Below, in pieces: positions 1-4,055 of a DNA stretch of 64,000 nt. The stretch's first letter is position 1; every line of letters begins with the position of its first letter. The notes beneath the pieces are model-generated. The model did not search any database. It saw nothing but the letters and a program-made list of their open reading frames with translations, and was not told the DNA's origin. Source of the DNA: Antiquaquibacter oligotrophicus (lineage in GTDB: Bacteria > Actinomycetota > Actinomycetes > Actinomycetales > Microbacteriaceae); NCBI RefSeq assembly GCF_020535405.1, contig NZ_CP085036.1:806001-870000 (forward strand), in the 5' to 3' direction. Made by a program: the position numbers and the translations under genes.

Positions 1-86
1 GCCTGGTCGTACAGGTCCATTGCCCACTGGTAGCGGATCGGCTTGAGCAGAAGGCCTTCCTGGAGGCCCGTTCCTAGAATTCCCAT
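1..86 (-). CDS. nrdB: Ribonucleoside-diphosphate reductase beta subunit, N-terminal fragment
   Basis: Only the first 28 codons lie in the window; the gene runs off the left edge. The readable start is MGILGTGLQEGLLLKPIRYQ followed by WAMDLYDQ, which matches the beginning of class Ia radical-generating R2 subunits. The ATG at 86 has a purine-rich GGGAAGAAG stretch just upstream. It is the next gene on the minus strand after nrdA, and only 13 nt separate it from the stop codon at 100-102 that closes the displaced nrdA tail, as expected for an nrdAB operon. R2 houses the dinuclear metal centre and tyrosyl radical, but none of those residues is in view. Confidence 0.85.
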   Translation of the reverse strand, partial: MGILGTGLQEGLLLKPIRYQWAMDLYDQ

Positions 87-170
87 GTCTTCTTCCCGCC
101 TACTGGCAGCTGTCGCATTGAAGGTCGTCCATCGGATCGACCGGAACGTCGTATTCGGCTACCCGATCCA

Positions 171-2630
171 TCACGCACCTGCCTTCGGGGCGAGTCCGCC
201 GAAGCCGCGGCGCGCAGGCGCAGCGGGGGCGGCGGAACCGGCGGATGCCTCGGCCGGGGCCGACTTCGAGGCGACGAGCTCCTCGGTCTTGTTGACCTTG
301 ACCGTGGACTGCTCCGCCGTGTGGCGGGGCTTCATGTGCAGGTAGTACGTCGTCTTCACGCCGCGCTCCCAGGCACCGAAGTAGATGTCCATCATGTCGC
401 CGAGGTCACGCGTCTCGAGGTACATGTTGCGGCTGATCGCCTGGTCGATCCACTTCTGGGCGCGAGCGGCCACCTCGAGGAATGCGTACGGCGAGAGCTG
501 GAAGCTCGTCTTGTACACAGCCTTGAGGTCATCCGGGATTGCCGCGATGTTCTGGATGTCGCCCTGGCTGCGCAGGATCGCCTCGCGCGTCGACTCCCAG
601 ATGCCACGCTTCTGCAGGTCGGCAACGAGGTTGCGGTTCACCTCGAGGAACTTGCCGTTCGAGGTCGCGCGGCTGAAGATCTGCGAGAACTGCGGGTCGA
701 GGCCGGGTGTGGTGCCAGCGACGAGGCCGATGGATGCCGTCGGTGCGATGGCCATGAGTGTGGCGTTGCGCATGCCACCCTTGACCTTCTCGCGCAGCGC
801 ATCCCAGTCGAGACGCGTTGTGCGGTTGACCTTGATCTGCATGCCGCGGTCCTGCTCTGTGAGCGCGATCGAGTCGATCGGCACAAGACCCTGCGACCAG
901 CGGCTGCCCTCGAAGTTGTTGTAGGCGCCACGCTCCTTGGCGAGTTCGGTGGATGCGTCGATCGCGGCGTACGAGACGTGCTCCATGATCTCGTCGATGA
1001 GGTCGTACGCCTCTTCGCTCTCGTAGGAGTGGCCGAGCTTTTCGATGATGTCGGTGAAGCCCATGACACCGAGGCCCACGGCACGGTTCTCCTGGTTGGA
1101 GAAGTCCGCCTCCTTCACGCTCGAGCGGGTGATGTCGATGAGGTTGTCGAGCTGGCGCACCGCGAGGCGTGCCGACTCCTCGATCTTGCCGAAGTCCACC
1201 CGAACAGCGCCCGTTGCCGGGTCGGTGATGAGGTGCTGCGAGAGGTTGATCGATGCGAGGTTGCAGACGGAAACGTTGTCCTCGTCCTGCGGAAGCGTGA
1301 TCTCGGTGCAGAGGTTCGAGAGGTGGATCGTTCCCGTGTTGTTGTTGAGGGCACGGTTGTTGATCGTGTCCTTCCAGGTGAGCCACGGGTGGCTCGTGGT
1401 CTGGAGGGAGATGAGGATCGACTTGAACTGCTCACGAGCGGAGATCTTCTTGAACATCCGCATCTCGCCGGCCTCGGCCTTGGCGACGTACTCGGTGTAG
1501 CGAGCCGAGAACTCCTTGCCGTAGAGCTCGTTGAGGTCGCTCACCTCGAGCGGGTCGAAGAGGTACCAGTCGTCGTCGTTCTGCACACGCTTCATGAACT
1601 CGTCGGAGATCCAGACGGCCGTGTTGGCCGTGCGGGTGCGACGGTAGGGGTCACCCGAGTTGTTGCGCAGCTCGAGGAACTCGGGGAAGTCGAGGTGCCA
1701 GTTCTCCATGTAGAAGCACAGGGCACCGAACTTCTTGCCACCGCGGCTGACGGCGCGCAGGATCGAGTCGATCGTGTGCATGAAGGGGATCGGACCGGTC
1801 GACGTGGTGTTGTTCGAGCGGATGGGCGAGCCCTGCGCACGAAGCTTGGTCACCGAGAGGCCGATGCCGCCGGTGCCCTTGGTGAGCCACATGACATCGC
1901 GTGTGGTCTTTGCGATGTGCTCCATGTCGTCCTGCATCTCCATGACGAAGCAGTTCGCGAGCTGCGGGTAGATGGTGCCGGCGTTGACGAGGGTAGAACC
2001 TGCGGCGAGGTACTCGAGGCTCGACATCTTCTCGTAGAACTTGAGGGCCGCCTCGGTGGGGTTGGCCTCGTTGAGCGAGAGGCCCATGGCGATACGCATC
2101 CAGAAGTACTGGGGAACTTCGAGCGCGTCGCCGTTGCGACCCTTGATGCCGTAACGGTTGTTGAGGGTGACAACACCGATGTACTTGAGGAGCTCGTCGT
2201 GGGCTGGCTCCAGCTTGCTGGCGAGGAAGTCGAGGTCGAACATCTCGACGAGGCGGGGGTCGAGGAGACCCTCTTCGACCCCGCGGGTCACGTTGGGCTT
2301 GAAGTGGGCCCGGTGCAGCTCCTTGAGCTCCTCCGAGGTCGCGTAGTCGCCGAGCACACGCTTGTAGATGGTCTTGAGGAGGAGACGTGCTGCAACGGTG
2401 TCGAAAGCGGGGTCGTCCTTGACGTTCTGCAGCGCGACCTGGATGACGGCCTCGTCAAGCTGCTGCGTCGTGATGCCATCGAAGAGGGTGAGCTCGAGCT
2501 CGGACGCGATCTGGGTGACCCAGGTGATGTTCTCGTCGAGTCCGACGGTCGCCGCCTCGATCGCGAGATTGATCTTGTTCGCGTCGTACGGCTCCCGCTC
2601 GCCACTGCGCTTGACGACTGTAATTCCCAC
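171..2630 (-). CDS. nrdA: Ribonucleoside-diphosphate reductase alpha subunit (class Ia), tail out of frame
   Basis: This is the large subunit that reduces ribonucleoside diphosphates for DNA synthesis. The GTG at 2630 is chosen over an ATG further upstream because AGAGGAG lies just before it and the protein then begins directly with an ATP-cone (residues about 3-93). Active-site landmarks are visible: Cys227 (NCFVM), the N439-L-C441-T-E443 motif, Cys456 (VCNLAS) and the paired tyrosines 762-763 (KTTYYL). The 819-residue reading frame ends in an Ala/Pro-rich linker (LAPKAGA) without the C-terminal CxxC needed for re-reduction by thioredoxin. That tail, ending LQCDSCQ and a TAG at 100-102, is present in the -1 frame. 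One missing base in the CCCC run (GGGG, 187-190 on +) would restore it. Confidence 0.93.
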   Translation of the reverse strand: MGITVVKRSGEREPYDANKINLAIEAATVGLDENITWVTQIASELELTLFDGITTQQLDEAVIQVALQNVKDDPAFDTVAARLLLKTIYKRVLGDYATSEELKELHRAHFKPNVTRGVEEGLLDPRLVEMFDLDFLASKLEPAHDELLKYIGVVTLNNRYGIKGRNGDALEVPQYFWMRIAMGLSLNEANPTEAALKFYEKMSSLEYLAAGSTLVNAGTIYPQLANCFVMEMQDDMEHIAKTTRDVMWLTKGTGGIGLSVTKLRAQGSPIRSNNTTSTGPIPFMHTIDSILRAVSRGGKKFGALCFYMENWHLDFPEFLELRNNSGDPYRRTRTANTAVWISDEFMKRVQNDDDWYLFDPLEVSDLNELYGKEFSARYTEYVAKAEAGEMRMFKKISAREQFKSILISLQTTSHPWLTWKDTINNRALNNNTGTIHLSNLCTEITLPQDEDNVSVCNLASINLSQHLITDPATGAVRVDFGKIEESARLAVRQLDNLIDITRSSVKEADFSNQENRAVGLGVMGFTDIIEKLGHSYESEEAYDLIDEIMEHVSYAAIDASTELAKERGAYNNFEGSRWSQGLVPIDSIALTEQDRGMQIKVNRTTRLDWDALREKVKGGMRNATLMAIAPTASIGLVAGTTPGLDPQFSQIFSRATSNGKFLEVNRNLVADLQKRGIWESTREAILRSQGDIQNIAAIPDDLKAVYKTSFQLSPYAFLEVAARAQKWIDQAISRNMYLETRDLGDMMDIYFGAWERGVKTTYYLHMKPRHTAEQSTVKVNKTEELVASKSAPAEASAGSAAPAAPARRGFGGLAPKAGA

Positions 2631-2715
2631 GAAAATCTCTCCTCTTGGGTCGCCAAAAACGACCCGATCTCTTCCCCTGATGATGCCTCGCGACCCGTCC
2701 CCGGCTGCGCGGTGC

Positions 2716-2765
2716 AATCACTATATAGCGGGGTACCGACACTGCGGTAACCCTAGATGTAGTGG
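2716..2765. promoter_or_regulatory. Two NrdR-like boxes upstream of nrdA
   Basis: Compared with the known NrdR consensus acaCwAtATaTwgtgt, 2716-2731 (core CACTATATAG) and 2750-2765 (core CTAGATGTAG) match at about 11 and 12 of 16 positions. Paired boxes in front of nrd genes are the usual arrangement for this ATP/dATP-sensing repressor. The cores are 34 bp apart, slightly more than the three helical turns normally seen. The nrdR gene is not in the window. Confidence 0.6.
2722..2750 (-). promoter_or_regulatory. Putative nrdA promoter
   Basis: On the minus strand, TTACCG (2745-2750) is followed by a 17-nt spacer and TATATA (2722-2727), a good fit to a housekeeping sigma promoter. The leader to the GTG at 2630 would be about 85 nt. 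The -10 hexamer lies inside the proximal NrdR-like box, which suits repression by occlusion. This was inferred by eye, with no transcript evidence. Confidence 0.5.
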
Positions 2766-2770
2766 GCGTG

Positions 2771-2810
2771 TCATCCACAGATGTGGATAAGTTCGCCCGT
2801 GTTCTACACA
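2771..2810. promoter_or_regulatory. Cluster of DnaA-box-like sequences upstream of nrdA
   Basis: TCATCCACA (2771-2779, +) differs at one position from TTATCCACA; TGTGGATAA (2782-2790) is an exact DnaA box on the minus strand; TTCTACACA (2802-2810, +) matches TTATNCACA at 8 of 9 positions. DnaA boxes are known to control nrdAB in Escherichia coli, so the position between nrdA and the divergent MFS gene makes a regulatory role plausible. No AT-rich unwinding region is present, so this is not a replication origin. Confidence 0.5.
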
Positions 2811-2846
2811 ATTCCACAGGCGCGGCCGGCGAACTAAGGTTGGTCT

Positions 2847-4055
2847 GTGAAGAGCTACCTGGATCTCCTGCGAACGCAGGGGGTCGCGCGCATCATCGCG
2901 GCTCAGCTCACCGCCCGATTCCCGAGCGGGATGCTCTCACTGGCCTATCTCCTGCACGTCGAGCGAGTTCACGACTCGTACGGTGCGGCGGGCCTCGTCC
3001 TCGCCGCGACGAGCATCGGCCAGGCCATCGCCGGACCACTCACGAGTCGGTGGATGGGTGTGTGGGGCATGCGTCGTGTGCTCATCCTCACCCTCGTGAT
3101 CTGCACGGGGGCGATCCTGTCGATCGCCATCATCCCCATGAGCGTGCCGATGTACATGGTGGTGGGGTTCATCGGCGGCCTGAGCACCCCGCCCGTGCAG
3201 CCCGCCGTACGCACGATCTACCCGAAGATGGTGAACTCGCGCCAACTCACACCGCTCTTCTCCCTGGATGCTTCGGCTCAGGAGATCATTTGGGTGGCTG
3301 GCCCTGTCATCACGACCCTCGTCGCGACCCAGGTGTCGACACAATCGGCGATCTTCCTCGCCGCAGCGTTCCTCGTGGTCGGCGGAATCTGGTTCATCAC
3401 GGCCCCGGATGTCGGCCGCGTTCGTATCCCGCGAAGCAAACGCTCCTTCGGCACCGTTCTCACGCGCCGACCGGTGCTGCTCGCGACCATCACGGGCTTC
3501 CTCCTCGTCGGCGCGTGCGCGGCGGTCGAAGCTGGAGTAGTCGCCGTGTTCGGCCACGGCGGGCCCGAGGCCGGCATCGTGCTCGGGATATGGGCTATCG
3601 GTTCCCTCGCGGGAGGCCTCTCGCTCGGGCACGTGCCGATCGGGCCGTGGGCGCTCGCGCGCCGCATGTTCATCGTTTTCGTCGGCATGGCGCTCGCATC
3701 GATCTGGCTCGATTTCTGGTGGCTCGCCTTCGCTCTGTTGATCGCCGGCATCGGCATCGCCCCCGCCCTCGCGGTCATCTTCGCGATCGTGTCGTCGAGC
3801 GTGAAGTTCAGTGACACCGCAGAGGCCTACGGGTGGGTTGGAACGGGACAACTCATTGGCGCCGCCCTCGGTTCTGCCGTGGCGGGCTTCCTGATCGACG
3901 CCAATGGTGCGATCGGCGCCTTCTGGGCGGCGATCGCTTTCGCGTTTGCTGGCGCTCTCGTGCCTACGCTGTTGCGCCGTTGGCACCCCGATCTGCGCGG
4001 GCGCGACGCGAGCCCCATCCCCGACACGGCCCCGGTGCCAACCCAACCGAGCTAG
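2847..4055 (+). CDS. MFS transporter
   Basis: The 402-residue protein is dominated by hydrophobic segments in two halves separated by a basic loop near residue 195 (RIPRSKRS), the layout of a major facilitator superfamily permease. The loop between TM2 and TM3 carries an RWMGVWGMRR stretch resembling the MFS motif A region. Substrate cannot be read from the sequence; relatives are often labelled drug or sugar efflux proteins. The GTG at 2847 is preceded by AAGG. It is transcribed divergently from nrdA and ends before a long inverted repeat that separates it from the convergent FMN reductase gene. Confidence 0.8.
   Translation: MKSYLDLLRTQGVARIIAAQLTARFPSGMLSLAYLLHVERVHDSYGAAGLVLAATSIGQAIAGPLTSRWMGVWGMRRVLILTLVICTGAILSIAIIPMSVPMYMVVGFIGGLSTPPVQPAVRTIYPKMVNSRQLTPLFSLDASAQEIIWVAGPVITTLVATQVSTQSAIFLAAAFLVVGGIWFITAPDVGRVRIPRSKRSFGTVLTRRPVLLATITGFLLVGACAAVEAGVVAVFGHGGPEAGIVLGIWAIGSLAGGLSLGHVPIGPWALARRMFIVFVGMALASIWLDFWWLAFALLIAGIGIAPALAVIFAIVSSSVKFSDTAEAYGWVGTGQLIGAALGSAVAGFLIDANGAIGAFWAAIAFAFAGALVPTLLRRWHPDLRGRDASPIPDTAPVPTQPS

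Follow-up and report, generated by a model that had tools for sequence, protein, structure and literature searches.

A probable trans-acting redox tail peptide in the class Ia ribonucleotide reductase of Microbacteriaceae

In the Microbacteriaceae examined here, bacteria of soil and water, the gene for the large subunit of class Ia ribonucleotide reductase (RNR), the enzyme that supplies DNA precursors, is very probably split, so that the redox tail would be a separate peptide acting in trans on NrdA. Class I RNRs re-reduce their active site through two cysteines carried on a flexible tail at the C-terminus, as described in the available passages of PMC5704485 and PMC9531940, and the latter counts 1737 of 2022 class I sequences with a C-terminal CXXC. 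Judged by those same passages of PMC9531940, the NrdA analysed here would fall among the class I RNRs without a C-terminal CXXC. Its gene lies in a 64-kb window of the genome of Antiquaquibacter oligotrophicus (Microbacteriaceae), which consists of one contig of 2.9 Mb. A short open reading frame (ORF) beside nrdA encodes the missing cysteine pair; comparison of sequences predicts that it is translated and that its product binds NrdA and acts in redox.

The 3' end of nrdA in the window

The window NrdA has an N-terminal ATP-cone, an all-alpha domain and a full catalytic barrel (2-523 of the 523 positions of the barrel model), the domain content of a class Ia enzyme. Its LANC, SNLC, SVC and TTYY motifs align with identical residues of the solved NrdA 5im3, and we take these to be the active-site cysteines and the tyrosine dyad of NrdA. 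With 379 bits against the NrdJ_Z model, below the cut-off of 400, and a best match to PRK06539 (1621 bits), the protein does not classify as a class II (B12) catalytic subunit. It is also the sole PF02867 match in its genome. Across 27 genomes of the genus, class I/II barrel-family large-subunit genes number one per genome, two drafts showing two contig-end pieces. Because this tail-less NrdA is the only PF02867 enzyme of its genome, the enzyme must work.

As the sequence-only reading had noted, the nrdA frame stops at position 171 (TGA at 173-171, minus strand) with a C-terminus that reads ...GFGGLAPKAGA and contains no cysteine. The CxxC tail of a class Ia large subunit is thus absent from the NrdA polypeptide itself, and in 77 of the 78 family genomes surveyed NrdA has no cysteine past the TYYLH anchor. 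The same reading had correctly placed a tail in the -1 frame, with its TAG at 102-100 and a gap of 13 nt (99-87) before nrdB, and had pointed to the run at 187-190, which is CCCC on the coding strand and GGGG on the plus strand. It missed the ATG at 171-169, in the tail frame, which overlaps the nrdA stop codon. From this ATG the tail reads MDRVAEYDVPVDPMDDLQCDSCQ, and the TGATG overlap suggests likely translational coupling (Table 1). A GTG stands one codon further ahead in the tail frame (174-172, minus strand), and this frame is open back across more than 200 nt. The window tail is a complete ORF with its own start and not a chance reading frame, given a like ORF in 75 of 78 family genomes and a pN/pS of 0.22 in the tail frame (see below).

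By eye, the nrdA/tail junction contains no slippery heptamer of the X-XXY-YYZ type, as had been stated before, and the RNA fold around it is no more structured than those of shuffled sequences (z -0.62). No Rfam match was found within window positions 1-3500. For the peptide we obtained no NCBIfam match at E<=1 and only sub-threshold Pfam matches (DUF5816, E 0.05-0.12; one zinc-finger model, E 0.32); on these grounds, we rejected its assignment to the RiPPs or any other known family of peptides. Opposite nrdA, the plus strand holds an open frame of 809 aa (window positions 321-2750), probably a shadow of nrdA codon bias.

Table 1. Features of the nrdA region and the second tail copy in the A. 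oligotrophicus genome (positions are those of the window unless a contig is named)
Feature	Position	Strand	Remarks
nrdA, class Ia RNR large subunit	171..2636	-	821 aa from GTG 2636-2634; PRK06539 1621 bits
Detached tail ORF, MDRVAEYDVPVDPMDDLQCDSCQ	100..171	-	23 aa; ATG 171-169, TAG 102-100; -1 frame relative to nrdA
TGATG stop-start overlap, nrdA / tail ORF	169..173	-	likely translational coupling
nrdB 5' end	1..86	-	ATG 86-84; runs past window edge
Tandem NrdR-box-like sites	2718-2733 and 2750-2765	.	nrdA promoter region; 16-bp spacer
Second tail copy, MDNETDTIGGYAVPMDPMDLLQCDSCQ	G000:C1:1879425-1879505		GGGAGG ahead of ATG; inverted repeat past stop (by eye)

Detached tails in the family and fused tails outside it

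We read the nrdA 3' ends of 78 family genomes: the window genome, 25 more of its genus and 52 of other genera. A tail ORF adjoins nrdA in 75 of them. Relative to nrdA, this ORF lies in frame 2 in 62 genomes, in frame 0 in 7 and in frame 1 in 6, and a possible start codon is present at or close around the junction in all 75. The first possible start is at +2 in 27 tails (TGATG, TAATG and TAGTG types), at -1 in another 27 (ATGA, GTGA and TTGA types); the remaining 21 have it at -5 or between +3 and +61. A nrdB-like start follows within 150 nt past the tail in 74 of the 75 genomes. For 9 tails, no frameshift ahead of the nrdA stop could lead into the tail frame, and for 9 more this frame is open only within the last 15 nt before that stop. 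In G041 (a single contig of 0.93 Mb) and in G079, the nrdA stop is directly followed by nrdB; no tail was found between the two genes, even by a looser motif search, and the only tail gene is unlinked (L114, L115). An 86%-complete draft (L092 in G035), whose nrdA 3' end is apparently damaged or misassembled, was excluded from the frame counts.

The tail peptide is under purifying selection. Calculated on the last 17 codons of copies found by a motif search, which favours conserved proteins, pN/pS was 0.22 for nrdA-linked tails (74 distinct sequences), 0.13 for unlinked copies preceded by NrdR-like boxes (13), 0.31 for other copies (22) and 0.17 for copies from IMG/VR (58). The two shifted frames gave values of 1.3 to 5.5 over all sets, and 1.8 and 2.7 in the nrdA-linked set. 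The scripts for the box, pN/pS and nrdA 3'-end sets kept only C..C copies, so that the invariance of the cysteines is built into these sets; with looser search criteria, too, every tail copy recovered beside nrdA had C..C. Among the motif-selected linked copies, conservation at two-decimal precision is complete for P, D, P and M of VPxDPM, and Y and V reach 0.99.

The peptide co-occurs with class Ia NrdA. Among 120 family genomes, it is present in all 55 that have class Ia NrdA and in 1 of the 65 without an NrdA match, a 77%-complete draft (G138) in which the NrdA query matched nothing. Within the window genus it occurs in 26 of 27 genomes, the exception (G006) being the one without class Ia NrdA; the large subunit of that genome is represented only by a 29%-identical protein, presumably NrdE-like. 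In total, the peptide was found in 41 of 85 genera, and the sampled genomes are related, so these co-occurrence counts are not independent.

Outside the family, homologues of the peptide form part of NrdA. A class-wide search of 345 genomes returned 39 with NrdA at E<=1e-180. The 23 non-family NrdAs are 62-75% identical to the window protein, and 20 of them carry the tail fused; two others are truncated at contig ends, and the remaining one (G762) is tail-less. The fused C-termini follow the pattern CPxDPxxxxxCxxCQ (e.g., ...ACPVDPQERLQCESCQ) and can be aligned with the detached peptides. In the outgroup Actinomycetes (L133, L135-L145, L147-L154), NrdAs 70-75% identical to that of the window end in a homologous motif, ...CPVDPQERLQCESCQ. 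Whereas these tails are fused in frame, the detached ones have Y-x-V-P-x-D-P-M-D ahead of the cysteine pair; the segment in this position reads YxVPxDPMD in detached tails and xACPVDPQER in fused tails. That outgroup NrdAs end in a fused homologue supports the identification of the detached peptide as the class I redox tail, as had been proposed from the window. In 18 of the 20 outgroup genomes, a nrdB-like start comes no more than 150 nt behind the fused nrdA. Across the 23 outgroup genomes, alignment A2 detected one tail each in 21, two in G612 and none in G762; in G612 and G716 the NrdA contigs are broken, and one A2 tail match is on another contig.

The G762 protein (L155, from another family) is 62% identical to the window NrdA and tail-less, with the C-terminus ...VRRSTGTVAQLHL, and alignment A2 found no tail elsewhere in that genome. 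On this evidence, a tail-less NrdA may exist without the peptide. In a 396-genome sample of the phylum, alignment A1 returned the window genome and four weak matches only, one of them a fused NrdA tail. This alignment is weak outside the family (its match to the fused G358 tail reached no better than E 5e-4), and distant detached tails could escape it. We rejected as tails three weak phylum matches (L080, L081, L083) that resemble what we take to be succinate dehydrogenase iron-sulfur subunits and have a chance-like YxVPADPMD segment. An ORF of G048 (L124, contig C98), presumably acetyltransferase-like and ending in ...DPMDELGCEGCE, gave a weak tail match (E 0.002) that could be chance or a fusion; it was not counted as a member.

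Unlinked, plasmid and phage copies

Two or more tail copies are present in 51 of 56 peptide-bearing family genomes, and the second copy of the window genome is listed in Table 1. Tandem sites resembling NrdR boxes precede nrdA, and they are the only such pair in the window. We scored 42 unlinked copies, including four phage and three plasmid ones, with what we take to be the NrdR box consensus, so the boxes are known from their sequence score alone. Such tandem boxes stand ahead of 16 of the 42 copies, one in each of 16 genomes, with the sites 32-33 bp apart. Their pair scores of 32-37 were reached by 0 of 100 shuffles, and the other 26 copies score 24 or less. A boxed copy occurs in 16 of the 17 bacterial genomes tested; from the exception, G078, part of the copies were fetched. 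NrdR binds best to boxes with spacers of 15-17 bp, according to the accessible part of PMC12051234. Predicted box pairs with this spacing are found at nrdA and at the 16 unlinked copies.

The boxed copies look like a single locus. Two genes downstream of the window genome's copy, which we take to be dehydratase-like and murB-like, each have a homologue close to 14 of the 15 further boxed copies. The unboxed copies that we inspected adjoin plasmid- or phage-like genes, their neighbours including presumed ParA-type ATPases. No RNR gene stands behind the unlinked copies inspected. For this reason we rejected the possibility that the peptide is a regulatory leader; its fused homologue better accounts for the conservation.

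Several unlinked copies depart from the common form. Divergent pairs of copies about 450-500 bp apart lie in plasmid- or island-like DNA in four genomes (L060, L061, L066 and L069 in G002, G025, G023 and G007, respectively), and some of these copies are followed by a stretch like FxTPA. Longer versions carry the tail motif at their end (L063, L067, L073, L074, L120); their N-terminal part looks common to some (e.g., AIIAQVTKTDLHPDGTTETTDSYTI), and a fusion to another small module is possible. Some mobile copies are degenerate; L065, for example, is missing one of the two cysteines.

A composite peptide query matched 19 plasmid records (15 from Clavibacter, 3 from Leifsonia and 1 from Gryllotalpicola) and gave 7 phage matches with weak E-values of 0.03 to 9. 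Tail peptides are present in four phages, CN1A, CMP1, phiPsal1 and Pan2, the first two as two records each; a Klebsiella phage match (E 9) was discarded, as no C-terminal motif was found in it. An RNR barrel gene was detected in none of these four phages and three plasmids (0 of 7), with controls positive in 11 of 14. In IMG/VR, a pattern search gave 353 matches, 316 of which were confirmed, and we fetched the best 80 of the 316. All 80 stretches have the tail motif before a stop, and it yields an ORF of 20-32 aa when the start is assigned by an ad hoc rule; tblastn found NrdA in none of the 80 fetched stretches. Ten neighbour proteins from nine of the best-80 contigs were compared with PHROGs: eight belong to portal, terminase, virion/tail, endolysin, helicase or HNH families and two to families of unknown function. 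The peptide of Pseudanabaena phage Pan2 (L132), MDDFDTIDGFACPNDPADLVSCESCQ, is closer to the fused outgroup tails than to those of Microbacteriaceae; Pan2 may infect an actinobacterium, or detached tails may extend further than seen here.

A tail acting in trans and its alternatives

In the model we favour, the NrdA of class Ia-using Microbacteriaceae ends just past the catalytic barrel and a short linker, and the CxxC-bearing mobile tail would be produced on its own, as a peptide roughly 20-50 aa long. This peptide would dock on NrdA via the conserved YxVPxDPMD segment, bring its reduced cysteines into the active site, re-reduce NrdA at each turnover and depart, and the spent peptide would be reduced by thioredoxin or NrdH. 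The docking segment may have been acquired by the detached form in place of the tether. Phage and plasmid copies could supply more tail to the host NrdA, those of phages during infection. We also lean, with rather less assurance than for the split itself, toward a broader proposal: the class Ia RNR of this family would have three parts, the third being a diffusible and exchangeable redox peptide, made from both the nrd operon and an NrdR-controlled stand-alone gene, and phages and plasmids would contribute versions of their own, about 20-60 aa long, that sustain or raise host dNTP synthesis. The solved relatives compared here are not known to test a tail acting in trans.

The position of the window tail, in the -1 frame next to a run of C, speaks for the missing base that the sequence-only reading had proposed, whether as an assembly error or as a real frameshift. 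An error or recent frameshift confined to the window genome has a negligible chance of being correct: the split recurs in 75 of 78 family genomes with tails in three frames and a possible start of their own, NrdA is tail-less in 77 of 78, and two genomes have unlinked tails only. The comparison with relatives that the earlier reading had called for turned up, one damaged draft aside, no family NrdA with a cysteine tail of its own and, in its place, separate adjoining ORFs in 75 genomes. The other mechanism it had offered, a programmed -1 slip that yields full-length NrdA, draws some support from the 62 of 75 tails in a frame reachable by such a slip and from the long open stretch upstream of the window tail. 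However, the remaining 13 tails lie in other frames, and slippage is ruled out as a general mechanism because an in-frame stop, a closed frame (9 of 75, with 9 more open only close to the stop) and an unlinked gene (G041 and G079) each exclude it. The junction shows neither excess RNA structure nor a heptamer, and unlinked genes encode the same tail; we consider a programmed slip highly improbable.

Two further explanations accept the tail as a free peptide and give it another role. Yeast Sml1 competes at the R1 C-terminus, and the peptides could be tail-mimicking regulators or inhibitors of an RNR in which a redoxin reduces NrdA directly. Phages and plasmids carry the peptide where NrdA was not found, and a decoy role is conceivable there; the multiple copies per genome also count in favour of this view. 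We nevertheless think this unlikely, since NrdA is the only PF02867 protein of its genome and tail-less, leaving a mimic nothing to mimic; moreover, every nrdA-adjacent copy found has the cysteine pair, and in outgroups NrdA itself includes the homologue. Alternatively, the peptide might serve another partner, for example as a general small thiol carrier that is merely co-regulated with nrdAB, and its unlinked copies do stand beside unrelated genes. The peptide is absent from those sampled family genomes in which class Ia NrdA gave no match, save one incomplete draft, and it is fused to NrdA in outgroups; this leaves little room for such an explanation.

The closest precedent for a trans-acting class I tail is the split class II RNR NrdJa/NrdJb of Pseudomonas aeruginosa, in which, in the passages available of PMC5704485, a C-terminal cysteine module for re-reduction has its own gene. 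The detached tail ORF likewise encodes a redox C-terminus separately. It differs in belonging to a class Ia enzyme rather than class II and in being a tail of about 20-50 aa instead of a zinc-finger module; it is also present in at least two copies in most genomes, and on plasmids and phages too. The NrdA of phage Aeh1, split by the homing endonuclease gene mobE, similarly consists of two cooperating polypeptides in the accessible text of PMC2988022. There, an inserted mobile gene divides NrdA, whereas here the redox tail alone is released, no gene lies between the parts, and extra tail genes exist elsewhere. The open-access literature searched (titles, starts of abstracts, and passages among the matches listed) contained no report of a separately encoded class I tail and no occurrence of the tail peptide strings. 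Within that literature, a separate redox C-terminus in class II (NrdJb) and a split NrdA in phage Aeh1 are known already, and a class I tail as a free peptide would be new.

The tether that joins the tail to the active site is commonly regarded as belonging to the class I enzyme, and a natural enzyme with a free tail would give direct access to measurements of tail binding, exchange and reduction. Such a case would also show that the redox subunit of an essential enzyme can travel on phages and plasmids, with the tail genes of these elements among the smallest auxiliary metabolic genes. A detached tail could further explain NrdA records without CxxC. Annotation easily overlooks genes of 20-40 codons, as illustrated by the Clavibacter and Pontimonas phage copies, which have no annotated feature. 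On the Leifsonia plasmid NZ_CP065038.1 (L125), a 33-aa tail peptide (WP_223361114.1) is annotated as 'ribonucleotide-diphosphate reductase subunit beta', which looks like a naming error by association.
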